Below are positions 21,661 to 42,621 of a stretch of DNA of 64,000 nt, piece after piece. This DNA is from Lachnospiraceae bacterium (GTDB lineage Bacteria > Bacillota > Clostridia > Lachnospirales > Lachnospiraceae), in NCBI GenBank assembly GCA_029054245.1, contig JAIDFQ010000043.1, forward strand, positions 310,001 to 374,000. Direction: 5' to 3'. The number at the start of each line of letters is the position of its first letter. Position 1 is the stretch's first letter. The notes under the pieces were generated by a model. That model saw only the letters and a list, made by a program, of their open reading frames with translations, made no database searches and was not told where the DNA came from. Position numbers and translations under genes: made by a program.

Positions 21661-22839
21661 ATGAGACGTGCAAATGGAACAGGTCATGTGTTTAAGATGA
21701 AAGGGAAAGCAAGGCGGAATCCTTGGCGTGTAAGAATTACTGTCGGGTGGGAGGTTGACGAGGTAACTGGAAAATCAAAGCAGATTGTTAAAACGCTTGG
21801 GTATTACCCATCAAGGCGTGAGGCGGAGTCTGCTCTGAATGAGTATCTTGACGACCCATATAATATCGGTAGTAAGGATATGACTTTTGAGGAGTTGTAT
21901 CATGCGTGGTCAGAAAAGTATTTTACCACATTGTCAGGGGTATCGTCTGTCCGCACAGTTACGTCAGCGTACCGCTATATGCATATAATATATAAGATGA
22001 AGGTTCGCGACATACGTGTAAGGCATTTGGAAGAATGCATTCAGGATGCCTATGTCATATCAGACAGGGGTAAGGATAAGGGCGAGAAGAGGTATGCTGG
22101 TGCGTGTACCAAAGGGCGTATGAAGTCGGTGTTCAACCTGATGTTTGATTATGCGGTAAGGTATGATATCGTAAAGACAAATTATGCGAGGAATTTTGAG
22201 ATAAGCAAAGAAATCAAAGACCAGAAGAGGAGGGAGAAAAAGGAAGTTACTATTTTTTCAAATGAAGAACTTGAACTTCTCTGGGAGAATGCAGATAAGT
22301 TTCCATTTGTGGATATGGTGCTGATAGGTATATATACAGGGTGGAGACCGCAGGAACTTTCCATCCTGAAGCTGAAAGATATCGATTTGGATAAGGATAC
22401 TTTTTTTGGCGGTCTTAAGACAGATGCAGGGAGAAACAGGTATGTTCCAATACATCCGCTAATCAAAGGCTTGGTTTCCAAGAGGTATGTAGAAGCAGAA
22501 GAACTGGGGAGCGAGTACCTTTTTAATGATATAAATGGTCAGAGGGGTACTGTCATGACCTATGATAAGTACCGTAGCCGCTTCAATAAGATAATGGCAC
22601 GTTTTGATATGAAGCACAGACCCCATGAGACCCGGCATACATTCTCTACGCTGGCAAAGGCATATGGTATGAAAGACAATATTAGGAAGATGATTATGGG
22701 GCATTCCCTTGATGATTTTACTGACCGAGTGTATACTCACCCGATGATGGAAGAACTGTGTCAGGAGATGGGTAAAATCGGGAAATGGTATCCATACGGG
22801 GAAACCCCTGAGTTTGAGATAGAAGATATAGATATATAA
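21661..22839 (+). CDS. int: Tyrosine recombinase, element integrase
   Basis: Phage-type site-specific recombinase, 392 aa, expected to integrate and excise the element. The N-terminal arm/DNA-binding part (NPWRVRITVGWEVDE), a core-binding region and the C-terminal catalytic domain are visible. Catalytic residues are the arginine in YTGWRPQELSIL, HETRHTFSTLAK (HxxR), the histidine in MGHSLDD and the nucleophile tyrosine in RVYTHP. I chose ATG 21661 with GGAGGT seven bases upstream, not the in-frame GTG at 21646. It contains three AGGGGTA motifs (21936, 22066, 22543). It is the first gene inside attL. Confidence 0.94.
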   Translation: MRRANGTGHVFKMKGKARRNPWRVRITVGWEVDEVTGKSKQIVKTLGYYPSRREAESALNEYLDDPYNIGSKDMTFEELYHAWSEKYFTTLSGVSSVRTVTSAYRYMHIIYKMKVRDIRVRHLEECIQDAYVISDRGKDKGEKRYAGACTKGRMKSVFNLMFDYAVRYDIVKTNYARNFEISKEIKDQKRREKKEVTIFSNEELELLWENADKFPFVDMVLIGIYTGWRPQELSILKLKDIDLDKDTFFGGLKTDAGRNRYVPIHPLIKGLVSKRYVEAEELGSEYLFNDINGQRGTVMTYDKYRSRFNKIMARFDMKHRPHETRHTFSTLAKAYGMKDNIRKMIMGHSLDDFTDRVYTHPMMEELCQEMGKIGKWYPYGETPEFEIEDIDI

Positions 22840-22875
22840 ACAAATAGCGCAACATGGCTCTTTCATGGCGGATAA

Positions 22876-22918
22876 CCTCTGCATACAGTATGATTTGTAC
22901 TATATGCAGAGGTTTTTT
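22876..22918 (+). terminator. Terminator after integrase
   Basis: CCTCTGCATA pairs with TATGCAGAGG and is followed by six T. It ends the integrase transcript. Confidence 0.85.
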
Positions 22919-22938
22919 GCCTAATTTTGTCATTTTAA

Positions 22939-22967
22939 TTGAGTGATACCCCTGTGTATGATACAAT
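22939..22967 (+). promoter_or_regulatory. Methyltransferase promoter with inverted motif copy in the spacer
   Basis: TTGAGT (22939-22944) and TACAAT (22962-22967) have a 17-bp spacer. The spacer holds TACCCCT at 22947-22953, one of only two minus-strand copies of the element's motif. This position would suit a repressor or other regulator that recognises the motif. Confidence 0.55.
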
Positions 22968-22997
22968 TTTTTCATCAAATATATGGAGGTATTGCTT

Positions 22998-25037
22998 ATG
23001 ACGCAAGATGAAGCACGTGAGTTACTGGATAGTATGCTGTATCCTTCTAAAGAGGCTGCTAGAAATATTCATGCTAATAAAAAGTTGGAATCTGCAGATA
23101 ATGAGAAGTTATTGCAGATAGTATCAGAGTTGGAAAAATTAAAAAACAGGTATGAAAATGGTGAAGATAATAAGGAAGAAATTGGAAAGTATTTGGATAG
23201 TGCATTGGCAGATATTGCGTGTATGATGATAAATTATGGTAAAGAGAGAGTGAATGTTGATAGTAAGAGTAAGACACCCCATAAGCAAGTTTTGCCTTTT
23301 TTGATTAAGCAGGTTTTATTTTATATTGCAGTTCTGTGTATTGATCTTTTTAATGTTAATCAAGAGAAAGTGTGGGAAGAGTTGAATAAAGAGTTAAAAG
23401 CTTTGAATTTTACTATATCCCGTAATTTTTTCAGCAGAATGCATACAACGCCGAGTCGGTATGTTGCTATGAAAAATTATAAACAGCCTGAGTTGCCGAC
23501 AAATTATAAAGGGCAGAAGCGTGACGAGTTGGCAGTTGCCATTAAGAATCTTGTGTATCAGGCTGGGAAGTATGACATTTTCTGCGACATCTTTGGGGGA
23601 AGCGGAGCAGCATCTCTTGCGGTGGACAGGCGTAAAGAAGCAAAATATGAATATAATGAGTTGGATAAAATGACTCAGAATTTGTTTGCAGTTATCGAAG
23701 ATGATAATAAGTATAAAGACTTGATACAAGGGCTAGAGAGGCTTCAGTTAGACTTAAGAGGCGGAGAAAAATGGATTAATTCTAATTTTAATTCGTATGT
23801 AAATAACCATGTCACATTAAAAGGGCAAAACAAAATAAGGGATAATGAACTTGAAATATTAGAACAGAGAAAGTGGACGTTTAGTATGTCAGGTGCTGAA
23901 AAGATAAAGGTCATGAAGCACTTTCATGATTCAATTAGTAATTTAGATGATGACTTTTCAGTTTCATGTGCTGGTAAATCGTATTCAAAGCATGAACTAT
24001 TAAATAAAATATTTGTTGATTGTCAAAAACACCAAGCAGATGCTTTAAAAAATTTCTCAGATTATTTTCATTTAATAGCAGAACTTAGCAGCCATGAAAC
24101 ATTGAGTTATGATTTTTTGCTTTCCAGATATAATTTGAAAGTTCATAACAGCAGTTATGGAGTTTCCAATATTGGATTAAGTTATGTTATAAGCCAATAT
24201 GAACAGTATAGGGCATATGAGTATTTTATTTATTTTGATTGTGTATTGAACGATTTAGATTTGTTGCCGCAATATGATATTACTTGTGCAATTGCTAAAG
24301 TATTCATGCAGTCATTTGCCTTTTATGGAGATGCTCAGTTAACTGAGATTTTGAGGATGTGTGCAGACAGTGACGAACAAAAGAATTCGTATGGCACTTT
24401 TCTTGAGTTTGTTAAAAAAGACTTTAGAAGTATTATTACAAAGATGCATGATACCATTAAAGGAACTATTTGTGATGACTCAGATTGCATCAAGGTTATT
24501 CAGAAATATGAGTATAAAAATGGGAATGGGAATGGAAACTATAAGAAGCCTATTTTTTATTCAGATTCTCCTTATATTGCTACGTCTGGTTATGATGTGA
24601 AGAATGCCAAGGGTGAGAAGTTTGGATTTACAGAAGGCAAGATGGAAGAATTAATTGAAGCTTTAAAAAATAGTGGAGACAGGTTTATTTTTTCATGCAG
24701 GGCAGTCAAAGGTTCTGAGAACGGAGCAAAAACAGATGAAGATTTGAAGAGGGGTAATTACGATATTTTTGGTGCTGTCTATATGAACTTTATCGATATT
24801 TTTCAGTATGAGGATGACGCCAATCGGCAAAATCTTTGGGTGCTGGCAATCATAAAGGATAGCGAAAAGAGAAAGTATTCCTTTGCCGACTTAATATCAG
24901 AGAACAGGATTGCTGAGATTATGATTACAAATTTTGAGATTCATGGTTTTTCAGATCCTGATTATCCTGATACAAGATTTGAAGTATATGAGTTTAGTCA
25001 GGTGCTGGGAGAGCTGATATCAAATGCTAATGTATAG
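22998..25037 (+). CDS. Divergent D12-class DNA N6-adenine methyltransferase
   Basis: Predicted Dam/D12-type enzyme, 679 aa, about twice the usual 270-350. The AdoMet-binding loop is CDIFGGSGAASLAV (D197 onward). The catalytic motif near residue 523 reads YSDSPYIATSGYD, DSPY in place of DPPY. A long insert of about 310 residues lies between them, and an extra about 150-residue N-terminus precedes. No restriction partner is adjacent. The gene is visibly AT-rich compared with the genes from 30.7 kb on, and holds only one variant AGGGGTA copy (24750), so it may have joined the element recently. Start ATG 22998 has GGAGG seven bases upstream. Family assignment is probable, activity is not proven. 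Confidence 0.75.
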   Translation: MTQDEARELLDSMLYPSKEAARNIHANKKLESADNEKLLQIVSELEKLKNRYENGEDNKEEIGKYLDSALADIACMMINYGKERVNVDSKSKTPHKQVLPFLIKQVLFYIAVLCIDLFNVNQEKVWEELNKELKALNFTISRNFFSRMHTTPSRYVAMKNYKQPELPTNYKGQKRDELAVAIKNLVYQAGKYDIFCDIFGGSGAASLAVDRRKEAKYEYNELDKMTQNLFAVIEDDNKYKDLIQGLERLQLDLRGGEKWINSNFNSYVNNHVTLKGQNKIRDNELEILEQRKWTFSMSGAEKIKVMKHFHDSISNLDDDFSVSCAGKSYSKHELLNKIFVDCQKHQADALKNFSDYFHLIAELSSHETLSYDFLLSRYNLKVHNSSYGVSNIGLSYVISQYEQYRAYEYFIYFDCVLNDLDLLPQYDITCAIAKVFMQSFAFYGDAQLTEILRMCADSDEQKNSYGTFLEFVKKDFRSIITKMHDTIKGTICDDSDCIKVIQKYEYKNGNGNGNYKKPIFYSDSPYIATSGYDVKNAKGEKFGFTEGKMEELIEALKNSGDRFIFSCRAVKGSENGAKTDEDLKRGNYDIFGAVYMNFIDIFQYEDDANRQNLWVLAIIKDSEKRKYSFADLISENRIAEIMITNFEIHGFSDPDYPDTRFEVYEFSQVLGELISNANV

Positions 25038-25122
25038 TGAATGAAAAAAGTTTTTGCTTTTGTCGTTCACTATAAATAAAATTCCATAGCAGAAAGTGAA
25101 AGAACAATAATAAGTTAAGCAG

Positions 25123-25161
25123 GGGTTACAGCTAGATTAAGTTGTAACCCTTTCTTTTTTT
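25123..25161 (+). terminator. Terminator after the methyltransferase gene
   Basis: GGGTTACA pairs with TGTAACCC and is followed by TTTCTTTTTTTC. A further inverted repeat, TATAGTGAA with TTCACTATA (about 25034-25075), lies directly after the stop codon. Confidence 0.8.
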
Positions 25162-25285
25162 CTCCCCATTCTCAGGGGTACTGCCTTTATCTATTCAGTC
25201 AGGTATACAGGAGTAAAGTTAAAATCCATAAGAGTATCCAGCCAATTCTTCCTACTACCATTAAGAAAAAACAGCAAAGGAGATA

Positions 25286-25750
25286 ATGATTATGGTAACT
25301 GTAACAAGTTGGAGGATTGTTATTGAGAAGGGCGGTCTGCCTGTCATATACCAGTGGAACGACAGGTATTTCCATGACCAGAAGATGAACCCAAAGTCAG
25401 AGGATATCATTGTCACAGAAGATGGTATTGAGTATGAACATACTACACGCAGAGGTGAAGTTACGCATTATAAGTACCCATACAGTAACCTGTCTTACAG
25501 TGAGGCTCCCTCTCCCTTGTCTTTCCGAGAAAGTGTCGGAGGCGTGAAGGTACAGAGAAATATCCTGTCTTTTGTGTATGAGTTGGCTTCAGGGGTACTG
25601 TTCTCTGATGACTGCTATTCTTTTGTTAAGGACAGGAAGCCGCTGGATATTGCCACTTTATTGGCAGAATATGAGGAGTTCAGCAGCCAGCTTGGCGGCG
25701 TGGACTGGGAGAAGGCAGCCAGCCATATCAAATTAAAGAAAAAGGCGTGA
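25286..25750 (+). CDS. Hypothetical protein of the element
   Basis: A 154-aa protein that I do not recognise. AAAGGAGATA precedes two near-adjacent ATGs (25286 and 25292). The composition is that of a soluble globular protein with many aromatic residues in the first half (WRIVIEKGGLPVIYQWNDRYF) and a lysine-rich end. It contains the motif as SGV codons at 25591. The following HTH gene begins 9 bp after its stop, so they are cotranscribed. Confidence 0.65.
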   Translation: MIMVTVTSWRIVIEKGGLPVIYQWNDRYFHDQKMNPKSEDIIVTEDGIEYEHTTRRGEVTHYKYPYSNLSYSEAPSPLSFRESVGGVKVQRNILSFVYELASGVLFSDDCYSFVKDRKPLDIATLLAEYEEFSSQLGGVDWEKAASHIKLKKKA

Positions 25751-25759
25751 GGTGAAGGA

Positions 25760-25960
25760 ATGGGTGTTGAAGTTCTGATGACAAGCAGGGAAGTATGCCG
25801 ATACTGCGGCTTCAGCAGGGCGGTACTTGACAGTCTGCAGAGGAAGAAGCTGTTAGTCCCGGCAAGATGCCTGCCGGGAAGTGGGAGGCGTCTATATCGT
25901 GAGAGCGAGGTAGTTTCATATATGGAAAGTTTAAAAACAGACCAAAGTCAGGAAGTTTAG
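25760..25960 (+). CDS. Small MerR/excisionase-like HTH protein
   Basis: A 66-aa protein with one winged helix-turn-helix of the MerR/HTH_17 kind: TSREVCRYCGFSRAVLDSLQ, then a wing region GSGRRLYRESEVVSYME. Such proteins act as excisionases or small regulators. AGGTGAAGG precedes the start. It could control excision or bind element DNA. A second, similar small protein is encoded at 28524. Confidence 0.75.
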   Translation: MGVEVLMTSREVCRYCGFSRAVLDSLQRKKLLVPARCLPGSGRRLYRESEVVSYMESLKTDQSQEV

Positions 25961-26296
25961 GCTTGTCAGGGGTATCATGCCATCCTTAAAGGCATGATTC
26001 CGGCAGGATGTCATGGCAGGAGGGGCGAAGCCGTCAATGATATAAGATTAAAATTTTAAGGCAGATTCGTCTGACTAAAGTTCGCTAGGTATCTGTCAAA
26101 CAGGAAAGGGATTTTGTGTGAGGGGTATCAAAGACAGCCTTTTGGCATAAGGCGTTAAAAACATAGCCGCACAGTCTGGGCATTTGAGGAAATGCTTTGA
26201 TGAAAGTGCCAGAAGCAGTGGTGAAGAGGTACTGATTTTGGCTCAAACAGACCAAGTCTAGTATCAGTCAAATAAAGGCGTTGTTTATATATTAAG

Positions 26297-26339
26297 AATA
26301 TCCAGCTTTTACCTTTAGAGGTATTGGCTGGATATTTTT
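26297..26339 (+). terminator. Terminator in gap before the 302-aa gene
   Basis: AATATCCAGC (26297-26306) pairs with GCTGGATATT (26327-26336), followed by TTTG. Confidence 0.7.
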
Positions 26340-26495
26340 GTGTTCAGGGGTACTCATGTTTTTAAAAGTATTATGAGGCTGGATATGTGTTTATGATTTA
26401 AATTTTCAACTGTCAATATGGGATTAATCTTACAAATTAAATATTGTTTGATGTTTTGGCAGTTAAAAAGTCGGTAGTTAGATTATTAATTTTGA

Positions 26496-26513
26496 GTCTG
26501 CGCTGGCGCAGAC
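26496..26513. promoter_or_regulatory. Perfect palindrome in leader of the 302-aa gene
   Basis: GTCTGCGC-TG-GCGCAGAC lies 28 bp before the start codon and about 15 bp before the AAGGAGG ribosome site. There is no T run. It may be an operator or an mRNA hairpin that affects translation. Confidence 0.5.
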
Positions 26514-26541
26514 AGATAGTAAATATAAGGAGGGCATTTTT

Positions 26542-27450
26542 ATGTCGAGTATGAGTTTTATGGATGTTTGTAAAGAGTTTGAGAAGCTGTTAGGGAAAGA
26601 CTGGCAGGTTGATGAGTTATCACAAGATTTGTATTCAGGACTGACAGCGGAGCAAATACAAAGGTTGCTAGAATATAAGAGTTTACTATCGTCGGAAGGA
26701 AGACTGAAGGAGGGTAAGCTGGAAAGGTTTAAAACTGATATGCTGACAGAAAAACAAGTTGATATGATGATAAATATTTTGAAAGATAAAGGTATTGAGC
26801 CTGTTATAAGAGAGACTAATAAAGGCAGACTGGCTTTTTGTGTTGATGATGAGGTGGTGTTTGGAGTGGGGATTCTGCCGAATGGAAGTATATCATACAC
26901 CATTTTTGACCGTAGTATTTATGATAAGTATTTTGCAGATGATGAAAATGCTACTTTTTGTTTTGTGTCAAGAACCAATAGTAATGATTATAAAGTCAGA
27001 TGTTTTGTTGAGGGGTACAGGGATGGTATTGAATTACATCAGTTGGTGCTAATAGAAAAAGGAGTTAATTTGATAGGAAGCAATGTTGACCATAAGTCGT
27101 GTAATGCACAGCTTAATATTTCAGATATGCTTAGGAAAGCTAACAACAGCCAGAATAAGAGAAACAGCAAGTTTCTCGGCTATGGGTTAAAGAATAAGTT
27201 AAAAAAGGATTTGAAAGAGGGAGATTATAACAGGCATAAAGGGGATTGTGCAAGACAGGTGGAAGAGGAACAGAGGGAAGGCGGCGAGTTTGCGTATGAT
27301 CCGCTGAACGACTTCTCTAATACTTGGTACGCCTTTGTTTTGCACAAAATGCTGAACAGGGGTACTGAGGAGGATTTGAAAGATTATAACAGGGATTTTA
27401 TTTTCAATCATGATAAGGTTACCCAGATTTACTACGAGTCAATTTTGTAA
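26542..27450 (+). CDS. Hypothetical protein, 302 aa
   Basis: Unrecognised. AAGGAGG lies upstream of the ATG. The N-terminal about 80 residues are helical and charged (FEKLLGKDWQVDELSQDLYS; LTAEQIQRLLEYKSLLSSEG). The middle contains a more beta-like stretch (AFCVDDEVVFGVGILPNGSI). The C-terminus is basic then acidic. No membrane segment or known catalytic motif is visible. It holds motifs at 27011 (EGY codons) and 27358 (RGT codons). The protein's length and good ribosome site argue it is real and central to the element. Confidence 0.7.
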   Translation: MSSMSFMDVCKEFEKLLGKDWQVDELSQDLYSGLTAEQIQRLLEYKSLLSSEGRLKEGKLERFKTDMLTEKQVDMMINILKDKGIEPVIRETNKGRLAFCVDDEVVFGVGILPNGSISYTIFDRSIYDKYFADDENATFCFVSRTNSNDYKVRCFVEGYRDGIELHQLVLIEKGVNLIGSNVDHKSCNAQLNISDMLRKANNSQNKRNSKFLGYGLKNKLKKDLKEGDYNRHKGDCARQVEEEQREGGEFAYDPLNDFSNTWYAFVLHKMLNRGTEEDLKDYNRDFIFNHDKVTQIYYESIL

Positions 27451-27553
27451 GATGAGCCATAGAGGAGGCTGAAGTCATGAGTTTATTGCGCAGTTACAGC
27501 TTTGCAGAGAAGTTGACATAAGGGCATATTTACCCTTTGCCTATTCTTGGAGT

Positions 27554-28087
27554 ATGGGGAACAGCATTGACTGTTCCCTTGAGGTGATCGAGGCGGCAAA
27601 GAGGGGAAAGATAGACCTTAATAAAGTAGAGGCGGTGGAGATGTCGGAGAAAAACAATACAGATGTAGCTTTTAATTTACAGGCGTATAACTGTGCAGTT
27701 CATAAGAACAGGGCGAAACTCTCGCATTCAGAGACAGGGAGGATGCTCCATATTTCAGAGGTTGACAGGGGTACTGTAGAACCCTATGGGGTGCCTGAGT
27801 CGGTGGTGACAGAATACGCAGGACAGGCTGACGAGTATGAGAAACTTGTGGACAGGTATGAATTCCAGTATGCGGTGTCAGTGATTAACGGCATTGAGAA
27901 TATGCTTTTGACAGAGCACAGCATGAATTTCTGGTGTTGCATGCGTCAGGCTCTCAGGGGTATCCCAGGTGCTGTTGCCGCCATGAAGAGGCTGGTGCAG
28001 GAAGAACCTGATATTGGAGAACTGGTATGGATTATCCTGTCAAGCGGCATGGATGTAGCTGAACATATACAGCCAGTGGCGGTCTGA
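27554..28087 (+). CDS. Hypothetical protein, probably 5'-frameshifted
   Basis: A 177-aa open frame without a good ribosome site before its ATG. A strong site (GAGGAGG, 27462-27468) sits before an ATG at 27477 in another frame, which stops after 14 codons. The frame of this gene continues open upstream to 27473 and reads sensibly (FIAQLQLCREVDIRAYLPF). One extra T in the TTT at 27482-27484 would join the two into a protein of about 203 aa. This suggests a one-base deletion, a sequencing error or slippage. The C-terminal half is helical. Function not recognised; motifs at 27767 (RGT) and 27956 (RGI). Confidence 0.6.
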   Translation: MGNSIDCSLEVIEAAKRGKIDLNKVEAVEMSEKNNTDVAFNLQAYNCAVHKNRAKLSHSETGRMLHISEVDRGTVEPYGVPESVVTEYAGQADEYEKLVDRYEFQYAVSVINGIENMLLTEHSMNFWCCMRQALRGIPGAVAAMKRLVQEEPDIGELVWIILSSGMDVAEHIQPVAV

Positions 28088-28099
28088 GGAGGAGGCAGT

Positions 28100-28393
28100 A
28101 TGAAAGCATTTGACATAATCGAAAGCATGTCAAGCCCAAGTATGAGGCAGCTTGTATTTTTCTATGAACTGTGCAAAGCAGGGGTAGTGCGTTTTGATAT
28201 GGGAAACCCTGCCCATGCGGAACTTTTAGACCAGATGCATGTGCTGATGCGGAAGGATATGGATAAGGCGGCATATTCAACGCTGGAGAAAACACAGAAG
28301 GAGGCAAGGCATAGGGCGTATGTGGCGATACTGTGCCAGATTGTGTCGCATATTATGCCGCTGAAGAGAAAAGGGATTATGGGTGCCAGTTGA
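28100..28393 (+). CDS. Small hypothetical protein, 97 aa
   Basis: Starts 12 bp after the previous gene with GAGGAGG upstream, so it is translated from the same message. The protein is mostly helical (SPSMRQLVFFYELCKAGVVRF; LLDQMHVLMRKDMDKAAY) and resembles no family I can name. The motif occurs at 28180 as AGV codons. Confidence 0.6.
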   Translation: MKAFDIIESMSSPSMRQLVFFYELCKAGVVRFDMGNPAHAELLDQMHVLMRKDMDKAAYSTLEKTQKEARHRAYVAILCQIVSHIMPLKRKGIMGAS

Positions 28394-28523
28394 CAAAGGG
28401 CGCATTTATGACCGCAGTCAGGGGTACTCCCCAAAATCTGCAGAAAACAGAGGACAAATATCAATATATTTTACGGTGGTTGTTTATAAAGCTGTTTGTT
28501 TTTTTGCTGGGAGGTGGTCTTGT

Positions 28524-28715
28524 GTGGCAGAAGAAAAGAAATACTTAAAGATTGGAGAGGCGGCGGCTATGATTGGCTGTTCCAAACAGACTCTGCGTAA
28601 TTATCAGTTGAGAGGTCTGTTAGTGCCTGAAGTTATTTTAGAGTCTGGGCAGAGGAGGTATTCTCCAGCCCAGATTGAGAAGTTTATCAGGGAGCAGATG
28701 GAGGTAAAGGCATGA
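28524..28715 (+). CDS. Small MerR-type HTH protein
   Basis: A 63-aa protein with a MerR/HTH_17 DNA-binding domain: LKIGEAAAMIGCSKQTLRNYQ, then RGLLVPEVILESGQRRYSPAQIEKF. I chose GTG 28524 with GGAGGTGG seven bases upstream; longer in-frame starts lie in sequence with no ribosome site. It probably binds element DNA as a regulator or recombination directionality factor. It is similar in layout to the 25760 protein. The motif at 28420 lies just upstream. Confidence 0.75.
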   Translation: MAEEKKYLKIGEAAAMIGCSKQTLRNYQLRGLLVPEVILESGQRRYSPAQIEKFIREQMEVKA

Positions 28716-28759
28716 GGCTTAAGAAGGGGTACATAAGAACGCTGGCTTTTACGCTTGCG

Positions 28760-29374
28760 GCTTACAGGCATTGATGCTGATGCTGAGTCGGTTTGGTGTT
28801 ATCTTTAATACGCTGAAATGACAAAGATTCATATTTTCCAGAGATGTTTTCTCATGGGTGGCGGTTGTTCCGCTTTTGCGGAACACTACAGATTTAAAGA
28901 ATTGATCTTCATGACTTAGGCGGCAGTTTCCTGTTGAGTTAACTGCCGCCCTTCCTCAATTACCGGTTTGGCGGTGCAGATTTTTGACTTGTGCAAAGGT
29001 GGCAAGTATGGTAAAATAATCTTCGGGATTTCAAGAGGATAAAGGTGTACCACCTGACACTGTTGGCGCAGCGTCAGGCAAGGTTGGTAATCACGCTACC
29101 ACACAATACAGACGAAGTCTGCGATACACGCAAAAATAATTATAACCCACAGAGGGTAAAATTACAATAATTTTTGTCAGTGTCTGTGCAGATGAAGCCT
29201 AAGCCTTAAGATATATTGAGGTGTAGAAGTGTGGACGCATACTGCTACACCTCTCTTGATTTCTCACTTGGGTGCATTAGTGGCGGAGAAATCCGCCGCT
29301 AAGGTACTCTGTGTGGGAAGTCGGAGTTTGAAAGAACTGCGATTAGCTGGTTGTGCCATCGTAGTTCTTTTTTT
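28760..29374 (+). ncRNA. Candidate large structured non-coding RNA
   Basis: About 600 nt without a gene but with many stable hairpins in a row. GTTCCGC-TTTT-GCGGAAC (28867-28884), GGCGGCAGTT/AACTGCCGCC (28919-28950) and CAGAC-GAA-GTCTG (about 29109-29121) come first. A long AT stem CAAAAATAATT/AATAATTTTTG encloses ACCC/GGGT (about 29130-29176). AGGTGTAG/CTACACCT (29219-29251) and a GNRA-type GGCGGA-GAAA-TCCGCC (29282-29297) follow. It ends in a strong terminator at 29332. Size, setting in a mobile element and 3' terminator recall large ornate RNAs such as ROOL or GOLLD, but I cannot match a consensus by eye. Both ends are approximate. Confidence 0.5.
29332..29374 (+). terminator. Strong terminator at 3' end of the structured gap
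   Basis: A 12-bp stem, AAGAACTGCGAT (29332-29343) with ATCGTAGTTCTT (29358-29369), is followed by T5. It stands 40 bp before the lipoprotein start, so either it ends an independent RNA or it works as an attenuator for the lipoprotein gene. Confidence 0.85.
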
Positions 29375-29413
29375 GTTACTCCCCAATAATAAAGATGAAA
29401 GGTTGGAGAACGT

Positions 29414-30397: not shown

Positions 30398-30528
30398 TAG
30401 ATATAATACGCAGCTTATTTCAAGTTTGAGATTGGAGTAGGGATCAGCGTATGGCAGCTCCGTCGGTGGAAAGTAAGCTGTTAGCTGATGCGGTTAAAAT
30501 TTTTAATCCTATATTGCTATATACCCCC

Positions 30529-34716: not shown

Positions 34717-34740
34717 TCGGCATACAGCCGGAGAAGTCAG

Positions 34741-35075
34741 CCAAGCCAAAGTGAGGGGTACTAATCCCTCAACCAACACAGCCAAGCCAGCCCAAGGTAT
34801 GTGAGGGGTACTGATTTCTCCGAAGCAGTCAAAAGCAAGCTAAAGTGAGCGGTATCAAATCCCTCAGTGTAGTTAAATGGCAAGCCCAAAACAGAAAGGT
34901 TTTCAAAATATGTGAGGGGTACTAAGAATCTCCCAATCAATGTAGTTAAAGCCTGCAAGACAGTGGAAGTGGAATCCCAAGACAATTAAGCAATCTCAAA
35001 GCAGCCAAGGTAAGTCAGGGGTACTAAGAACCAGCCGGATATTGAGGCTGGCTCTTTTCCTGTCAGGGGTATCCG
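34741..35075 (+). repeat. Non-coding array of the AGGGGTA motif
   Basis: Five exact copies at 34754, 34804, 34915, 35017 and 35065, plus one degenerate copy (GTGAGCGGTATC) near 34846, lie in a gene-free stretch. Spacings are about 50 bp or simple multiples. The copies share flanks such as GTGAGGGGTACTAAT...CCCTC and the word CCAAGCC. A hairpin (CCAGCC/GGCTGG, 35031-35058, then CTCTTTT) lies between the last two. The rest of the gap to 35205 shows nothing further. Confidence 0.7.
35031..35058 (+). terminator. Weak terminator inside the motif array
   Basis: CCAGCC (35031-35036) pairs with GGCTGG (35046-35051), followed by CTCTTTT. Confidence 0.45.
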
Positions 35076-35205
35076 GCAGACCGCCAGTTCGTGGATAAGG
35101 GCTGGCTTTTTCTTTTAGATTCTGTATTTTTTGGTATAAGGTGACTTGACATTATTGAGATAAGAGTTACCATAACAGCACCAAAACAGGAAGGGGTCTA
35201 AAGGT

Positions 35206-35466
35206 ATGAAGCTGGCAAAAGTATTTAAAGAGCATGCAGGGCAGGTCGTGGTTCTCCAGCCCCTCATGAGGGACGCCGCCACAAACAGGCCGTTAGCCTA
35301 TAAGGTACTGAGGGCGTGTACCTGCATGACGGAGGCAGTCAAGGCGCAGTGGTACTGCCTAGCCGAGGGCTTCGAAGGGGTATTCATTTACCCATGCGCA
35401 GAGGACGCCGCCCTTGCGCCGGAGGATGCGGCAAGGATGTTCAGGGTTTTGTATGGAAGGGAGTGA
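35206..35466 (+). CDS. Small hypothetical protein, 86 aa
   Basis: Unrecognised. AGGAAGGGG lies before the ATG at a long spacing. The protein has alternating hydrophobic residues and cysteines (VLRACTCMTEAVKAQWYCLA). Its stop is directly followed by the GTG of the next gene, so the two are coupled. Motif at 35376 in EGV codons. Confidence 0.58.
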   Translation: MKLAKVFKEHAGQVVVLQPLMRDAATNRPLAYKVLRACTCMTEAVKAQWYCLAEGFEGVFIYPCAEDAALAPEDAARMFRVLYGRE

Positions 35467-35859
35467 GTGGCTGTGGCTATTAAAGAAATTACAGTTGACA
35501 AGGATGCAAAGAGGCTGTTCAAAGTAGTAGGGGAGTACAACCTCAGCATGGAGCAGAAAAAAGAGATTGAAGGGATCGTGAAGGACATCAAAAGCGATGC
35601 CGCAAGGAACGCAGCCGCAATCATGATGTGCGACCTTTACGATTTGGATGGGGAAAGCCTGAAAGGCGATATGGCGAAGGTAGTCCTGCTTGACAGCAAT
35701 AAGGATGTCAGGGCGGAACCGTCAGAAAGGATAAGGCTCCTGCAGATATTATGGTGGATTGTAACCACCTATTTTGAGGGCGATGACGGTATGGCGTTGA
35801 AGAAGTGCATGGAGTTGTGCAGCCATCCAAGGAGGCGTAGAGGGGTACTTACCCCCTAG
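35467..35859 (+). CDS. Small helical hypothetical protein, 130 aa
   Basis: Begins at GTG immediately after the preceding stop codon. It is rich in lysine, glutamate and hydrophobic residues in helical spacing (LSMEQKKEIEGIVKDIKSDA; RIRLLQILWWIVTTYFEG). It ends in RGVLTP. The motif at 35841 forms the last codons and, with TACCCCCT directly after, makes a near-palindrome. Function not recognised. Confidence 0.58.
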   Translation: MAVAIKEITVDKDAKRLFKVVGEYNLSMEQKKEIEGIVKDIKSDAARNAAAIMMCDLYDLDGESLKGDMAKVVLLDSNKDVRAEPSERIRLLQILWWIVTTYFEGDDGMALKKCMELCSHPRRRRGVLTP

Positions 35860-36008
35860 GGCTGGCAAAAATAAGAAAGGCAGTATAATAGTATGGCAGA
35901 TTTAGGTGCATTGGCGGAATTTTTTGGGAGACTATCCTGTTTACGTGGCATTATAAAGCGGCGGATAATCTCTGCGGTATCATAAGGGGGTCTGATGATA
36001 CAGAGGCG

Positions 36009-36254
36009 GTGCGTGATGAAGTGCTGACTGAATTGTGCCGTATAACATCCTGTGTTTACAGGGAGGCATATTCCAAAATATTATGCAGACTGTACGGGGA
36101 TGATTATGAGGGGTATCAGGGCTTGTTTTGGAAGGCAGGCTCTGATATTTTTTTGCATCTTATTCCTGCAAAGTTTAGTCCAATAGGCGTAATAGAGGTT
36201 ATCCTGCTTTTTCTCAAGCGCATTTCAAGGTATAGCGGAAGGCGGTGCATCTAA
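36009..36254 (+). CDS. Small ORF, likely 3' part of a frameshifted gene
   Basis: An 81-aa frame (MRDEVLTELCRITSCVYREA) without a ribosome site at its ATG. The frame is open upstream and reads sensibly (TILFTWHYKAADNLCGIIRG). An ATG at 35893 in another frame encodes MADLGALAEFFG up to a run of six T at 35920-35925. One extra T there would fuse the two into a protein of about 120 aa. This looks like a one-base deletion, an assembly error or slippage. The protein is not recognised. Motif at 36109 as EGY codons. Confidence 0.45.
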   Translation: MRDEVLTELCRITSCVYREAYSKILCRLYGDDYEGYQGLFWKAGSDIFLHLIPAKFSPIGVIEVILLFLKRISRYSGRRCI

Positions 36255-36317
36255 CGTGCCGAGACGGGTTTTCCATCAGATGCCGCCCGTTCCTGACATC
36301 CCTCTGAACCATACGAT

Positions 36318-36623
36318 GTGATGAGGCTTATGGCATCAGTCAGGGGTAAGAGTTTTTCCCTGAGAAATCTGCCGCATTTCCCATATCATAAAAGTGTTTC
36401 TGACGGGCATGGAAGAAAGCTGGTTAAGAAAGCAGTGAGATGGCAGAACCACCAAGGGAGCCTGTGGTTTTTTGTGCAGTTTAGCCACTTCCCATGCCCT
36501 GTTACCAGAGTTATAATCACAGACCACCGGAGACGGCGTAAGGTACTTGGAAAGCCAGCGGGGATATTTATAGTGCCGCTTCAGGACGGAGGGAAGTTTG
36601 AGGTAAGATGCCGCAGCGTATGA
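36318..36623 (+). CDS. Doubtful small ORF, 101 aa
   Basis: An open frame that is basic and rich in H, P and R (VRVIITDHRRRRK-type stretches), with a weak start context. An equally long frame exists on the other strand. It lies between two better-supported genes and contains the motif at 36342. I list it because the gap would otherwise be about 390 bp, but it may be non-coding. Confidence 0.25.
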   Translation: MMRLMASVRGKSFSLRNLPHFPYHKSVSDGHGRKLVKKAVRWQNHQGSLWFFVQFSHFPCPVTRVIITDHRRRRKVLGKPAGIFIVPLQDGGKFEVRCRSV

Positions 36624-36641
36624 AAGGAGGGGTATCCATTT

Positions 36642-37433
36642 ATGGAGAAAGAATTTGACCATTATGACGTGCTGAAGTGGGAGTTGTTTGAGAAGCTGTT
36701 CCCTAAAATGATTTATGACGGGGATGAAAAAAGCTGTACAGACTTCTTCAACAGCCTGCGTGAAGAGCCACAGGCTCTGACATATGCAATGTTTGAATCC
36801 ATGTGCAGTGATGATAAAGCGGAATGCCCTTATAAAGCTGAAGATTTTCAGGCAGAAGTCCTCAGCAGGGGCAATATCGGCATGGTGAAGATCCAGCCGC
36901 CGCAGGGGAGTCAGAATGTCAGCAGTATCTTAAGGGCATATGTGGTGTTTTCCGGCAAAGAAGGAGGCATCCCTGTGAGGCTGTATTTTTTTGTAAAGCG
37001 GTTCATAGAAGGTCAGGTCTTTATTATGTATGTCAACCGGCAGTATGAAATCCTCAAGGTGGAGGAAATTACAGACTACATGGACGATATTGAGCGCGAG
37101 CATTATGGTATTGTGAAAAGCTATGCATGCATTGTCTATGACATGATGGCGGAACAGGAGACGGCAGAAAGGCAGTGGAGCAGGGACTGGAGTACTTTTG
37201 ACTGGGATTCTGTCAGGAAAAGCCTTGGTGACAGGGGTACTGATATTGGTCTTACAAGGGACGAGTGTCTGGAGTTCCTTGACTGGTATGCATTAAACAA
37301 TCCAGGTGACTATGCAAGGAAGTCAGTATATATCATCTTAAGGGAAATGGGGCTAAACGAGAAGCATGCCGCATACCTGTCAGGGCATCTGGATATGCTG
37401 GAGGCTCTGCTGTTGCTGGCAGACGGGGACTGA
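36642..37433 (+). CDS. Hypothetical protein, 263 aa
   Basis: Unrecognised acidic protein. The ribosome site AAAGGAGG overlaps a motif copy (36628), so the motif could affect translation of this gene. The first part (KEFDHYDVLKWELFEKLFPK) is helical. The middle is beta-rich (RLYFFVKRFIEGQVFIMYVN). The C-terminus is helical with hydrophobic residues (HAAYLSGHLDMLEALLLLAD). A further motif at 37233 lies in RGT codons. No membrane segment. Confidence 0.68.
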   Translation: MEKEFDHYDVLKWELFEKLFPKMIYDGDEKSCTDFFNSLREEPQALTYAMFESMCSDDKAECPYKAEDFQAEVLSRGNIGMVKIQPPQGSQNVSSILRAYVVFSGKEGGIPVRLYFFVKRFIEGQVFIMYVNRQYEILKVEEITDYMDDIEREHYGIVKSYACIVYDMMAEQETAERQWSRDWSTFDWDSVRKSLGDRGTDIGLTRDECLEFLDWYALNNPGDYARKSVYIILREMGLNEKHAAYLSGHLDMLEALLLLADGD

Positions 37434-37534
37434 GACATTAAGAAGGCAGCGGAGAAGGCGGCACTGCAGGGCTGTCAGGGGTATCCTGAAGGCTTCCGCA
37501 CTGCCAGCCCGAAGCCGCATGACAAAGGAGAGGT

Positions 37535-37846
37535 ATGGTGGAGAAAGATTTTTTTGATGAGATACAGCCGAGTCTATTAGACAGGCTTGGGAGGGTTTAC
37601 AGCAGTGACAGTGGATACCTTGAGTCTGTGAGCATGGAGACAGAAGCCTTCCGCCATCTGGAGGAAAGTTTTACAGAAAGCCAGCTTGAGATGATAAAGG
37701 GCTACAGAGACGCCATATACAGGACTGGCGGCGTATGTGAGTTACTGGCGTACCGTCAGGGCATGAGGGATTTAGCCGCCATCCTTGGCATAGGGGATAA
37801 GGTGCAGGATAAACAGGAAGAGATGGCTGTCTGTGGAGAAACATAA
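37535..37846 (+). CDS. Small helical protein, DUF6809-like pattern
   Basis: A 103-aa helical protein with AAAGGAGAGG before the ATG. The arrangement LEESFTESQLEMIKGYRDAI followed by LLAYRQGMRDLAAIL resembles the small DUF6809 proteins common in clostridial phages and integrative elements (a helical hairpin ending in a YxxG-type helix). The family match is by memory of the pattern and is tentative. The protein ends with a charged tail. Confidence 0.6.
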   Translation: MVEKDFFDEIQPSLLDRLGRVYSSDSGYLESVSMETEAFRHLEESFTESQLEMIKGYRDAIYRTGGVCELLAYRQGMRDLAAILGIGDKVQDKQEEMAVCGET

Positions 37847-39112
37847 GAAAAAGTGTATTGAGATAACATAAAAACCGGCAGAAGGCAGTCAGGCATGGTT
37901 CAGGGGTATCTTAAGACTTCGCATAGTATCAGATGTGCGGAGCCTTTTTTATATGCAAATATGTTCTTTAAGCCGCCGTTTCATTGATAAAGGCATTTCC
38001 TGCCCTGCCTGATATATCCTGCGTTTTCAGTGTGTGCGGTGATTTCATGTGTTCTGGTTTGATGGAATCCATTCTGATTTTGTCAGCAGTTGTTCTGATT
38101 TGTTAAAAGTTCAAGCCATGAGATAGGAGGCTTTGATTTGATGTATTCTGGCTTGATAGCATCTTTTCTGATTTTGTCAGCAGTTATTCTGATTTGTTAA
38201 AAGTTTAAGCTGTGAGATAGGGGATTTTGCTTTCATGCATTCTGGTTTGATTATATTTTTTCTGATTTTGTCGGCAGTTATTCTGCTTTGTCAGCAGTTT
38301 AAGCCGCAAGATAGGAGGTTTTGATTTCATCTGTTCTGGCTTGATGGCAGTTATTCTGATTTTGTTTACAGATGTTCTGCTTTGATTCCATTTATTCTGA
38401 TTTTGTCTGCATCTGTTCTGACCTGTCTGAAGTTTTCGGCCGCAGATGGGCATTTTTATTATGATGTGTCCTGACTTGATTTCATCTTTTCTGATTTTAT
38501 TCTGAGGTACTCTGTCCTGCTGGCATTTGTACAGCGAGATACAGTTTTTTGCCCTGAGTCTTTATTATCTGTGCGAAGATTTTCAGGTATGCAGAAGTAT
38601 CATGGGAAGAGGACAGCCGGAGCGAGTTCCTGCTTTCGGCATTTATATAGAAATGATGCCTGTGGAGGCATAAGACTGCTGTGAGAAAAAGTATGGCAGG
38701 GAGGAGCATGGAGGGGTACTGGCTGATATTTGTCATGGCTTTCCTGATTAGCAGTGTAAGACGGCAAAGCATGGAGGGCTGAAAACCAAAGATATCCGGC
38801 GACATGCCTTTTAACCTGCCATCTGGGCAGAAGCCGCTGAGCCTGTCAGGAGGGCAGGAGTGTCTGCGGTTTCTGCCCGATGTGAGGGGGATTAGTCTGC
38901 GGCGCATGCAGCCAGAATGTAAAACGCTTTCAGGGCAGTTTCTGGACAGTTCATATGCTTATATATTTTTTGCTTTAAAGATTTTACATAGAAAATTTTG
39001 CGGATGAAAAATTCCTCCTGCTGGCGGCTTTTCCCAGCCCACGAAAAAATCTGTAAGCGGAGGGATGTAAAACCAAAAGGCGTTACCAGAAAAATGAAAA
39101 GGAGTGATATGC
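37847..39112 (+). other. 1.27-kb non-coding region with nested tandem repeat
   Basis: No gene supported on either strand. It holds a motif at 37902 followed by a hairpin-like CTTAAGAC...GCGGAGCC stretch, then the 94-bp tandem repeat (38052-38490), a motif at 38712 and about 400 bp of unremarkable sequence. The short ORFs here have no ribosome sites and, over the repeat, periods that are not multiples of three. Confidence 0.6.
38052..38490 (+). repeat. 94-bp tandem repeat built of 20/21-bp TTCTG units
   Basis: The word TTCTGG(T/C)TTGAT recurs at 38052, 38146, 38240 and 38334, each exactly 94 bp apart. Inside each unit are three 20-21-bp subunits starting TTCTG (for example TTCTGATTTTGTCAGCAG) and a 32-bp spacer containing AGATAGGAGG or a variant. 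From 38334 the 20/21-bp subunits continue five in a row, then decay by about 38490. Spacing close to two helical turns is like iterons or partition-site repeats. Confidence 0.85.
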
Positions 39113-40144
39113 ATGGCAGGACGCAGCTTTATTTCAGATTTAAAGTATATTGAGTCGGCAGTCCGCAGGGGCGAGGTGTCCGAGCGTGGCGGATATGTTT
39201 TCAGGAGGCTGACGGGGTTCATTGAGTCAGGCTCTTTTACCAAGTCGAAAAATATGAAGTTTTTATGCCGGTACTGGAGCAGCAGCTATGGCGAACTTGG
39301 CAGGATATGGGCAAGCCAGGGGTACAGGGAGAAAAGCCAGGAGACTTTTCGTGTCCAGATGTCTAATCTGGGCAAGATGCTCTGTTCCCTGTTCCCCACG
39401 TTCAGCAGGGAGTTGTTTGTCTCAGGGACAGTCTTGGAGAAAGATGAGGCTGATTTCGCCGCAATCGAGACTGCCATTGATGCACTGCAGGGCTGTATGG
39501 GGCTTCCAGAGGAAGTGTTCATTGCAGAGGCGGTAAGGTATGCCGGGGATGCCTGCTGTGACGGCGAGGTGTCTGTAGGTGAGTGCAGGGGTACGGTTGA
39601 AAAGCTGAAGCCGCTGATGCAGTCAGAAGTCCTTAAATATCTTGGAGGGCTTGACATATGCCAGCTTAAGTTTATCTTTTCTGTCCTGAGGAGACCACTG
39701 TTCGGCGTGAGGGCTACAGCCTGCGACACAGAGAAGCTGGAGTTGATGAAGATGTTTGGTGCAGTGGGTACTGCGGCGGCAGATGCGGAGACAGCGGCGG
39801 AAGCGGTGAAAAGGGATAAGCCGGCAGAGGTTCTGGCCGAGGCTGCAGAGAAAACGCCATATAACCTTTCTTTCAGCAAGTCTTTATCAGATATCCTGAC
39901 GCAAAGGGGGAATGACAGGCTGACGGATGAGGAGACCAGAGAGTGGCTGGCGATGCCGGAGGCGGAAAAGGATGAGTATAAGCGGAGGCTGGCTAACTTT
40001 TTATCAGTCTTTACAGAAGAAGGCTTCAGGCGGCAGATGGCGCATTATAATCCGCTGGCTCTTGGCGAGGTGCTTGACGGCGACTATCCGGTGAAAGAAG
40101 GGGAAGAGAGGTATCAGTTCAGAAAACAGGAGGGTGCCATATGA
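39113..40144 (+). CDS. Hypothetical protein, 343 aa
   Basis: Unrecognised. I chose ATG 39113 with AAAAGGAG upstream; an in-frame GTG nine bases earlier overlaps the ribosome site. It is mostly helical: a basic N-terminal part (SFISDLKYIESAVRRGEVSE; FRRLTGFIESGSFTKSKNMK), a middle with scattered cysteines, and an alanine/glutamate-rich link (ADAETAAEAVKRDKPAEVLA). The C-terminal about 80 residues are acidic and helical. Basic N-terminus and size would allow DNA binding, but no motif proves it. Motifs at 39318 (QGY) and 39587 (RGT). The next gene overlaps its stop by four bases. Confidence 0.7.
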   Translation: MAGRSFISDLKYIESAVRRGEVSERGGYVFRRLTGFIESGSFTKSKNMKFLCRYWSSSYGELGRIWASQGYREKSQETFRVQMSNLGKMLCSLFPTFSRELFVSGTVLEKDEADFAAIETAIDALQGCMGLPEEVFIAEAVRYAGDACCDGEVSVGECRGTVEKLKPLMQSEVLKYLGGLDICQLKFIFSVLRRPLFGVRATACDTEKLELMKMFGAVGTAAADAETAAEAVKRDKPAEVLAEAAEKTPYNLSFSKSLSDILTQRGNDRLTDEETREWLAMPEAEKDEYKRRLANFLSVFTEEGFRRQMAHYNPLALGEVLDGDYPVKEGEERYQFRKQEGAI

Positions 40145-40419
40145 TAAAGACAATTCCAGTTGAAGACAGGGAGGCTCAGCGAAAGACGCCTGATGAGGCT
40201 GGCACAGCAGTTTCTTCCTATTATAATATGATGCAGATTCAGAGGCGTTTCTGCAAAATCAGTGATGCCGCCTTTTCATGTCCAGCCGCCGTCATCCACA
40301 GGGGTACTGGACTGCCAAGCGCAAGGGTGCTTTTACATGGGAAGCCGCCCCATCTTTCAGGGGTATCCTGCGGCTGGCATGGCGTGTCTGCCTTTGCCTG
40401 TGGAAGGGGCGGCTCTTAA
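40141..40419 (+). CDS. Small hypothetical protein, 92 aa, possibly decayed
   Basis: Starts with ATGA overlap to the preceding stop, which supports translation. The first about 45 residues look normal (IPVEDREAQRKTPDEAGTAV). The rest is rich in G, H, P and C and is read through two motif copies (40300, 40359) and an inverted repeat AGCCGCCCC/GGGGCGGCT, so the original gene may have ended earlier or been altered. Confidence 0.4.
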   Translation: MIKTIPVEDREAQRKTPDEAGTAVSSYYNMMQIQRRFCKISDAAFSCPAAVIHRGTGLPSARVLLHGKPPHLSGVSCGWHGVSAFACGRGGS

Positions 40420-40793
40420 AGCATAAGTGACAAATGGTGCGCCGCTTTTTCGTGACAAAGTGACTATTTCCTTTTATTGTGGACAGAGTTAACATACACA
40501 CACTGAAACGTCGGGAAACCGCCGATTTAAGGCGGAACGTCCTACGAGGCTCATACAGGAGGTTTCAAGGCTTTATGGGGAAATGCTCAAGCCGCCGCCG
40601 GACTGTGGCACACAGGGGCTTTGGCGCGCCCATATGTTTCCGAACCCTTAAGTCGAATAATACCTATTTTACGACCTGTGGCTTAAAACGGGGATTCCCC
40701 ATGAGGGGTATCGGAACGGGGCTTCCAATACGAACATTTCCGGCGTTTTATACGACTTTTGGTGATTGGCTGTAAGGGGGAGGTGAGTTGGCT
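40420..40793 (+). other. Gap before the second recombinase
   Basis: No convincing gene; a 98-residue frame from GTG 40479 lacks a ribosome site and has odd composition. Two GTGACAAA words lie at about 40428 and 40454, and a motif at 40704. TTTTATACGAC near 40748 also occurs near 33589 in the other large gap. Confidence 0.45.
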
Positions 40794-41378
40794 ATGAATA
40801 AGAGATGCGTTGCGCTGACGCAGGAGCAGTATGAAAAGAGCATTGAACTTATGAGGGACGGCTTCATGCTGTCAGGGGTACTGGTAAAGCCCAACGGGCG
40901 CATAGCCGCCGTTGAGGTGCTTCAGGCTTCGCTGGGACTGCGTCTTGGCGATGTGCTTCAGCTTTGCATGTCGTCGTTCATTAAGGACGGCGGCAGGTGG
41001 CGGCTGGATATCGTGGAGCAGAAGACCGGCAAGGTGCGCCAGTTTACAGTGCCTGTCGAGGTATATTCCTTTGTTCAGGATTATGCCCTCGACAGGGGTA
41101 TCGGCAGGGGTGCAAGGCTGTTTGACATTTCTGAGCGTCAGGTTGAGCGGCACCTGAACAAAGTGTTTGAGAAGATGGGACTGCCACTGCGACAGTATGG
41201 GAGTCACAGCTTCAGGAAGTTCTTCGCCACAAAGGTGTACCTTGACAATGAGATGAACATTGAACTTGTACGGGTACTGCTCCAGCATTCGTCAGTTGCC
41301 ATATCGCAGAAGTATATTGGCATATCGCCAAAGATGGTAGAGGATGCGCTGGCTAAGACTGCCAGCCATGTAATATGA
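40794..41378 (+). CDS. Minimal tyrosine recombinase (catalytic domain only)
   Basis: A 194-aa protein that aligns with the catalytic domain of phage-type integrases. It shows the first arginine in SLGLRLGDVLQLC, HSFRKFFAT (HxxR), the histidine in LLQHSSVA and tyrosine in SQKYIGIS. The arm-binding and most of the core-binding domain are absent, so it is about half the usual size. GGAGG lies 10 bases before ATG 40794; TTG 40788 is an alternative. It might resolve multimers, act on another site, or be a remnant. Motifs at 40874 (SGV) and 41094 (RGI codons). Confidence 0.85.
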   Translation: MNKRCVALTQEQYEKSIELMRDGFMLSGVLVKPNGRIAAVEVLQASLGLRLGDVLQLCMSSFIKDGGRWRLDIVEQKTGKVRQFTVPVEVYSFVQDYALDRGIGRGARLFDISERQVERHLNKVFEKMGLPLRQYGSHSFRKFFATKVYLDNEMNIELVRVLLQHSSVAISQKYIGISPKMVEDALAKTASHVI

Positions 41379-41424
41379 GGCTTGGCGGTGATATTTTTAT
41401 AAAAAAGAAAGAGAGGGATATGGT

Positions 41425-42165
41425 ATGTTCAGGCTGAAAAAGTGGGGGTTAAGTCTGGAGCCGGAAGGGTTCATAGGATGTGGGGACTGCTACGGCAATC
41501 CAAAGTTCCTTGACGGGGAGTTTATCCTCACGTCTTATGTGGTAAGGGCAGAAGTTAGTGACAGCGAAAAGCGGCTGAAGCTGTTTACCGTTTCAGGAAG
41601 CTGTTATGTGATGGACTATGCGGATATCAATGAAAGCTGTCTGGAATCCACAAGGGCTGTGCTGTCCGGCAGGGGCATCCCTGTTGACCTGAGAATGTGC
41701 GTTGCCCTTAAGGAGCAGAAGGACAGGGCGGTGAAAGAGCGGCTGACAGGGGTGTTAAAGCCGAATGAACTTTATGTAGTCATGCAGGGGGGAATTGGTG
41801 TCAGCGAGGCGTATTTTAAGACAGAAAAAGGCTCTGTCGTGCCGGTTCGTGTCAAGGTGCATACGGGCATGTTTCAGGACAGCATCATAGTGGCGGACTG
41901 GCAGACAGGGCTGTGTGACTGGAGGATATTCCCGTCAGTTTTCTCGGTGGAGCCATACCACTGGTCAGATGGGCTTGAAGCGGTGCATATGAAGAATATC
42001 GGGGAGGATTTTGTGTTTAAAGGTTCAAAGGGGGAAATCCTGTGCAGGTCGGGGGACACCACAGTTGTCAGGAAGGGAGATTTTGTGGGAGAAGGTCTGC
42101 TTTCCCCCGACACAGTCAATGGCAAGAGCCTGTTTTCAGCGGATAACGGTGATTTGTTCCAGTGA
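41425..42165 (+). CDS. Hypothetical protein, 246 aa
   Basis: Unrecognised, predicted mostly beta-stranded and soluble (KLFTVSGSCYVMDYADINES; PVRVKVHTGMFQDSIIVADW; GDTTVVRKGDFVGEGLLSPD). AGAGAGGG precedes the ATG. It lies 46 bp after the minimal recombinase and may be cotranscribed with it. Unusually for this element it contains no AGGGGTA copy. A hairpin terminator follows 25 bp after its stop. Confidence 0.68.
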   Translation: MFRLKKWGLSLEPEGFIGCGDCYGNPKFLDGEFILTSYVVRAEVSDSEKRLKLFTVSGSCYVMDYADINESCLESTRAVLSGRGIPVDLRMCVALKEQKDRAVKERLTGVLKPNELYVVMQGGIGVSEAYFKTEKGSVVPVRVKVHTGMFQDSIIVADWQTGLCDWRIFPSVFSVEPYHWSDGLEAVHMKNIGEDFVFKGSKGEILCRSGDTTVVRKGDFVGEGLLSPDTVNGKSLFSADNGDLFQ

Positions 42166-42621
42166 CAGCATCATATGAGTAGTTTTTGATAAGAAAGCGT
42201 TGCTGTAAGGTAAGGCTTTCTTTTGTGTCAGGGGTACTGTTTTTCAGGCAGGTACAGTTGCAGCCTTAGTTTATCAGGGGTACTGCTGTGGCGTGTAAAA
42301 AACGTGAGGCAGTTCTGCCTTGGTGATGTTTTTTTGGTCTTTGATAAGTTAAAAGCATATTTTTTTGGTAATGTGACAGGGCATCGAAGCTGGATATCTT
42401 TATATGGATATTTTGGCTTAGGTGCCTTTTTGTTGTGCCAGATGCCCTCAGAATGAGTGGATATCCCAGTTGCTGTATTTATACTGTCAGCTTTTCGGGA
42501 GGAGTCTGCCTGTGTATAGGGATTTGGGGTTGGCGAGTTGATAAACAGCTTCTTTCAATATGGCTATGCATGGCGCAGATGGTGAAGGAAAGCAAAATAA
42601 TAAAAAAGGAGGAGTCAGAAA
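42166..42621 (+). other. Gap with terminator and two motif copies
   Basis: The terminator (42191-42224) is followed at once by motifs at 42230 and 42276, the last two of the element. Short frames exist but lack ribosome sites. The region before 42622 is purine-rich and ends with AAAAAAGGAGG. Confidence 0.5.
42191..42224 (+). terminator. Terminator after the 246-aa gene
   Basis: AAGAAAGC (42191-42198) pairs with GCTTTCTT (42215-42222), followed by TT. Confidence 0.65.

Follow-up and report, generated by a model that had tools for sequence, protein, structure and literature searches.

Throughout its length, a mobile-element family of Lachnospiraceae and related gut bacteria repeats an exact GGGGTA word on one strand

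Mobile elements of one family, from gut bacteria of the Lachnospiraceae and related groups, repeat a GGGGTA core on one DNA strand. One member is an integrated element of 21,703 bp located in a 64-kb stretch of the genome of a Lachnospiraceae bacterium (contig JAIDFQ010000043.1, positions 310,001 to 374,000; the whole stretch analyzed is termed the window), in which the heptamer AGGGGTA occurred 52 times on the plus strand and twice on the minus strand. This code is real, element-wide, and family-wide; its reader and its use are matters of conjecture. Tentatively, we interpret the word as a private, strand-specific self-tag of the element family that is read by a DUF262 operon.

Our recount reproduced the observations of an original prediction made from the window sequence alone, namely the 52-to-2 polarity and the span of the copies, the three plus-strand copies outside of the element (8786, 18266, and 57105; window totals 55 and 2), and the extended forms AGGGGTACT (24 copies) and AGGGGTATC (15 copies) in 20001-43000. 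A second-order Markov model gave 2.2 expected copies for the element, the excess thus being approximately 24-fold, while the left and right flanks held 2 and 1 copies (0.9 and 0.7 expected, respectively). Among all 7-mers present in the element, AGGGGTA ranked first by z-score. The shuffled-codon null that the prediction had called for, built by shuffling codons in genes and dinucleotides between genes such that proteins, codon use, and intergenic dinucleotides were kept, yielded a mean of 5.84 plus-strand copies and a maximum of 12 in 1,000 shuffles, against the 52 seen (minus strand: mean 0.67, maximum 4).

The sites were not a by-product of protein sequence. Specifically, 30 of the 52 were in predicted genes, where they fell in the three frames 11, 8, and 11 times, and the remaining 22 were outside of genes, which rules out a protein repeat; protein constraint was rejected as well, since all frames were used and the codon-shuffle null was far exceeded. 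Every copy of GGGGTA in the window element was preceded by A, and words with one mismatch to AGGGGTA were at expectation (46 versus 43.5 expected, compared with 52 versus 2.2 for the exact word), indicating that the word is read exactly. Decaying repeats or inserts were therefore rejected as its source. In the other elements, one-mismatch totals ranged from 23 (22.7 expected, G510) to 125 (97.5 expected, G508), with the excess mainly at the outer letters.

The word is not a property of the host. AGGGGTA occurred 327 times in the host genome, 273 of them outside of the element (approximately 71 per Mb), and this value falls within the range across the genus (36 further genomes, approximately 52-108 per Mb, based on rounded genome sizes); the similar density across the host genome that would have undercut the original prediction was thus not found. 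A chromosome-wide host signal such as Chi or KOPS (FtsK-orienting polar sequences) would share with the word its short, G-rich, and polar character, yet we regard it as highly improbable, given that the word was not enriched in host or genus and that a single host, G511, carries a motif-dense and a weak element together. The FtsK-guiding and recombination-hot-spot roles put forward originally are accordingly not supported as host-wide signals. KOPS and SRS (SpoIIIE recognition sequences) are also short G-rich polar words but span the host chromosome, whereas the element word is confined to the element and never switches strand; Chi is likewise G-rich, exact, polar, and over-represented, but it is enriched in the host. 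In the strand bias of T7 for EcoP15I, the sites of a mobile genome likewise all point one way, but this concerns orientation only, whereas the element word is over-represented too.

GGGGTA was polar in the window element, in nine related elements, and in one 3.8-kb fragment (Table 1). Two pairs of labels, G021 and G507 (one genome) and L014 and L071, were each counted once. The slices of G507, G509, G510, G052, G393, and G222 are partial because they stop at contig ends, and slice limits were placed by eye where the motif or the genes stopped, a choice that somewhat favors high densities, although whole-contig profiles gave the same contrast and a polar enrichment that fell off at the element edges. 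Mean density across elements was one copy per 0.24-1.3 kb, and the strand did not switch along any whole element, including the 69-kb G410a slice. The letters around the core differed, forming dialects: (C/G)A-GGGGTA-(C/T) in the window, GGGGTA(C/T) in G508 and G509, mostly GGGGTAT and then C in G510 and G052, (T/C)GGGGTA in G410a, where A or G never precedes, and GGGTA followed by T or A in G222. Count and orientation, which the original prediction had proposed to compare among relatives, were both kept, and complete loss of the motif in homologous elements with otherwise conserved genes was not encountered.

Table 1. GGGGTA on the motif strand (+) and its complement (-) in related elements
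Element	Class	GGGGTA +/-	Expected +
Window slice	motif	52/6	6.0
G507	motif	43/3	5.6
G508	motif	129/4	14.6
G509	motif	61/0	8.9
G510	motif	28/2	4.6
G052	motif	9/0	1.7
G393	motif	25/1	3.5
G222	motif	23/3	6.3
G410a	motif	51/1	9.7
G511:C40	motif	17/0	3.0
G412 (3.8-kb fragment)	motif	5/0	0.3
G384	weak	6/0	2.0
G511:C70	weak	10/1	3.5
G254	motif-free	4/1	2.8
G083	motif-free	7/1	4.0
G410b	motif-free	4/2	2.6

A polar word in G410b (AGCACCTAC) proved to be a repeat within one protein-coding stretch. A motif linked to the integrase was also rejected, as 18 integrase-relative loci (20 fetched, with the short L045 and L062 omitted; L045 has one AGGGGTA) contained 13 copies of GGGGTA in the orientation of the integrase, where 22.3 were expected, and 40 in the opposite orientation. 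The two DUF262 elements of G511, one motif-dense and one weak (L188+L189; L068), both encode a DUF927/Cch-type helicase, as does G384, and translations of the large G410a element (L105/L106), read by eye, suggest KAP-like NTPases along with type I restriction genes.

The motif looks to be kept by selection. Aligned sites were identical in 10 of 23 cases in G507, 3 of 6 in G508, and 5 of 9 in G509, compared with 25%, 13%, and 11% of other 7-mers, respectively. In seven elements, gaps of <60 bp numbered 22 versus 48.9 expected; in two of them, G410a (P<0.001) and G508 (P 0.026), spacing was more regular than random placement would give, and in the other five it was not significantly so. A mild excess of sites outside of genes was found in G508 (P 0.004), G509 (P 0.007), and G410a (P 0.010) and was not significant in G507, G393, or the window. 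Individual sites come and go while their strand and density are maintained, and sites seldom lie close together, as in a code for coverage.

The original suggestion that the word defines a new type of element, or is read by one of its own proteins, stands insofar as the data are best read as a signal private to the element, with count and strand kept in relatives; a host-wide role is the part that fell. An element-encoded protein would read GGGGTA, and the likeliest candidate is the DUF262 (GmrSD_N, ParB/Srx fold) protein with its operon partners. DUF262 was the sole family present in all ten elements and the fragment, and in a tree of 17 DUF262 rows, a 100/99 branch separated the 4 motif-free rows from the 11 motif and 2 weak rows, with 2 label changes versus 5.6 in shuffles. 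It is possible, if short of probable, that the element writes its full length, cargo included, in a private one-stranded word, and that its own ParB-like DUF262 protein reads this word, separating element from host DNA and giving direction, i.e., a strand barcode with element-specific dialects. With one-way sites repeated along the element, such a reader might recognize the element's DNA and treat it as one unit with a direction, for example in loading, partition, replication, transfer, or telling self from foreign. In the majority of members, accessory roles on this DNA may fall to a Dam-type methyltransferase and an HNH protein.

DUF262 has been assigned a ParB/Srx fold (PMC4619093), and DNA bearing CpsCA, a short asymmetric mark, is reported to raise the GTPase activity of the DUF262 protein SspE approximately threefold (PMC13251355). 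The window protein contains a DUF262 domain with DGQQR, as do SspE and GmrSD, and SspE as described there answers to a short asymmetric mark, as proposed for the element word. Unlike these, the window protein had no DUF1524 match (a separate GmrD-like protein was not sought), and the element is enriched in the word itself.

Several observations weigh against a DUF262-read self-tag. The association of DUF262 with the motif is partly circular because most elements were located via the DUF262 protein, and its operon partners track the motif as well. DGQQR is altered in four motif elements (DAKQR in G511:C40, DGLQR in G052, DGAQR in G412, and DGKQR in G510), and the weak G384 and G511:C70 have close DUF262 relatives. 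In the passages of PMC4619093 and PMC13251355, DUF262 proteins recognize modified DNA and not a plain word. Moreover, 7-mers of the same composition as the word were identical in 31% of cases in G507 (46/150), 19% in G508 (8/43), and 17% in G509 (7/41), such that the identity rates together point to modest conservation and large turnover.

Other readers were weighed against the DUF262 protein. Methylation of an adenine of the word on one strand by the D12 methyltransferase c7, whereby the polar sites would leave the element with a single methylated strand and sister molecules would differ after replication until remethylated, is unlikely overall but comes nearest. The c7 protein has an FGGSG motif I followed by a DPPY-type motif IV, as in the D12/Dam class, and is similar to D12 models; the G222 copy matched a D12 model, that of G410a matched methyltransferase models more weakly, and the window copy alone had no Pfam match (predicted structure model: pLDDT, the predicted local distance difference test, 63). 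Seven motif elements out of ten encode c7 (window, G021/G507, G508, G052, G393, G222, and G410a), and a search of 397 family genomes with c7 alone recovered five, each of which carries both DUF262 and the motif. The exact, enzyme-like specificity of the word fits this explanation, as does the GGGTA common to all variants, with an A on each strand. However, c7 was not among the predicted proteins of G511:C40, a motif element with 17/0 sites that looks complete (the whole G511 genome was not searched), which weakens c7 as sole reader; no copy was seen on the contigs of G509 and G510 either, both of which are partial, and G412 was not among the five c7-matching genomes, assuming its sample to be the 397-genome set. 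Further, motif IV reads DSPY in all copies but that of G222, and the G222 c7 is closer to the window copy (35%) than is that of G393 (24%), yet the G222 word is more divergent. Searches for close c7 relatives returned none in the viral contigs or phages searched, two weak Pantoea Dam matches in plasmids, and, besides G000, only short ordinary Dam-like matches in an order-level sample.

Two further explanations appear doubtful, to a similar degree. Under the first, a small element protein, such as the MerR/HTH_17 (helix-turn-helix) protein c8, would bind the sites as a one-way transcription roadblock, in the manner of stoperators. Those of Cluster A mycobacteriophages are, in the passages of PMC6550527 and PMC9283540, asymmetric, dispersed, and mostly in one orientation, with a spectrum that varies between phages; the element word has all these features, including related but different words in relatives. 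Six motif elements had c8, compared with none of five sets that were weak or motif-free. Stoperators as described there are 13-14 bp long, number 20-30 per genome, lie in short intergenic spaces, and have a known repressor, whereas the element word is an exact 6-7 bp core with up to 129 copies, mostly within genes (in five of six elements counted), despite a mild intergenic excess. Such exactness is unusual for binding sites of this kind, and credible minus-strand genes had few sites in their own direction (1 versus approximately 11 expected), although plus-strand sites in these genes (4) were also below expectation. Under the second, the sites would guide a translocase, a nickase (the HNH protein), or single-strand handling during transfer or replication. 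The constancy of the strand, an HNH-like gene in five sets, and the DUF927/Cch-like helicase of G511:C40 are consistent with this, as is flank GC skew, which in the window and in most other cases makes the motif strand the probable leading strand (it was flat in G507, -0.011, and mixed in G510). Yet no conjugation or FtsK-like gene was noted among the window proteins searched, and the leading-strand agreement may merely reflect co-oriented genes.

Less likely again is an RNA signal for antitermination, stability, or protection in a long rightward transcript. All called window genes point rightward, and strand and transcription are inseparable there, but nine real-looking minus-strand genes held 4 plus and 1 minus GGGGTA, where approximately 11 on the minus strand were expected under a sense-RNA rule; the plus count was also below the 11 expected, so the comparison is not clean. 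These genes were chosen by eye, omitting a 420-amino-acid G510 gene (0/0, 3.8 expected, perhaps outside of the element) and an 87-amino-acid G509 open reading frame (0/0); all 26 minus-strand open reading frames of ≥85 amino acids in seven elements held 23 and 2. Pairing around the sites was unlike that of random transplants (P 1e-4) but like that of GC-matched ones (P 0.25), and an RNA or hairpin context was rejected as its initial signal vanished with GC matching. After this matching, downstream CCC was mildly enriched (68/378 versus 45.7 expected), and there was no Rfam match in 20000-46000.

The window element is flanked by a 48-bp repeat of which the final 18 positions are exact (Table 2). 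The host gene at the attachment site encodes a protein with a GGGTGRT stretch, and 33 of 37 genomes of the genus match the region, with the match stopping at the stop codon of this gene in most members. A decayed integrase remnant is located at the same attachment site in G001 (L160, reversed, 2981-3478) and contains one AGGGGTA. Beyond the listed genes, including small HTH proteins, many element proteins had no assignment. The window c9 protein alone had no match; c9 and c10 were each seen in five motif sets. The latter, found in 5 of 13 genomes queried (two being the same genome), went undetected in four motif genomes (G222, G393, G052, and G510), which weakens c10 as a reader.

Table 2. Features of the window element
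Feature	Position	Strand	Match or basis
Integrated element, 21,703 bp; basis of all motif statistics	21393..43095	+
attL, 3′ end of host gene	21345..21392	+
attR, 48-bp repeat of same host gene end, 41/48 identical	43048..43095	+
Span of the 52 plus-strand AGGGGTA (first bases, first to last)	21936..42282	+
Minus-strand AGGGGTA	22947..22953	-
Other minus-strand AGGGGTA	30581..30587	-
Tyrosine recombinase (integrase), 397 amino acids	21646..22839	+	PF00589
c7, D12 (Dam) class adenine methyltransferase relative, 684 amino acids, motif IV DSPY	22983..25037	+
c8, small MerR/HTH_17 protein	25760..25960	+
c9, HNH-like protein, 302 amino acids	26542..27450	+	relatives match PHROG 99; alignment
c11, present in four motif elements	27554..28087	+
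c8, second MerR-type HTH protein	28383..28715	+
c3, directly upstream of DUF262 gene	30739..31251	+
c0, DUF262/GmrSD_N protein with DGQQR, proposed reader	31214..32647	+	PF03235; PADLOC NsnA model, E 9.6e-18
DUF3846 protein	32631..33083	+
c10, 346 amino acids, upstream of second recombinase	39104..40144	+
Second, short tyrosine recombinase, 196 amino acids	40788..41378	+	PF00589

Tandem repeats were also present. An array with TTCTGATTTTGTC units at 38040-38498, upstream of c10 and the second recombinase, is a candidate iteron or recombination site, and arrays were found in L065 (12949-13165) and L130 (2316-2520). A 78-bp repeat at 29486-29663, within the gene at 29414-30397, encodes CxxC-like repeats, and a 35-bp repeat lies outside of the element at 53191-53323.

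For none of the known families tested does the element word show all of the family's defining features. Our literature search, judged from search results and passages of a few papers, returned no report of the word or of such an element. To our knowledge, polar words that run through a whole genome have so far been either phage operators or signals for a host chromosome. The family of integrated elements described here maintains a word of its own, exact and confined to one strand, whose sites are spaced as if for coverage and which the host lacks. The word, its dialects, and the short list of candidate readers are directly testable, and if an element protein reads the word, this would be a new means by which mobile DNA labels itself and sets a direction.

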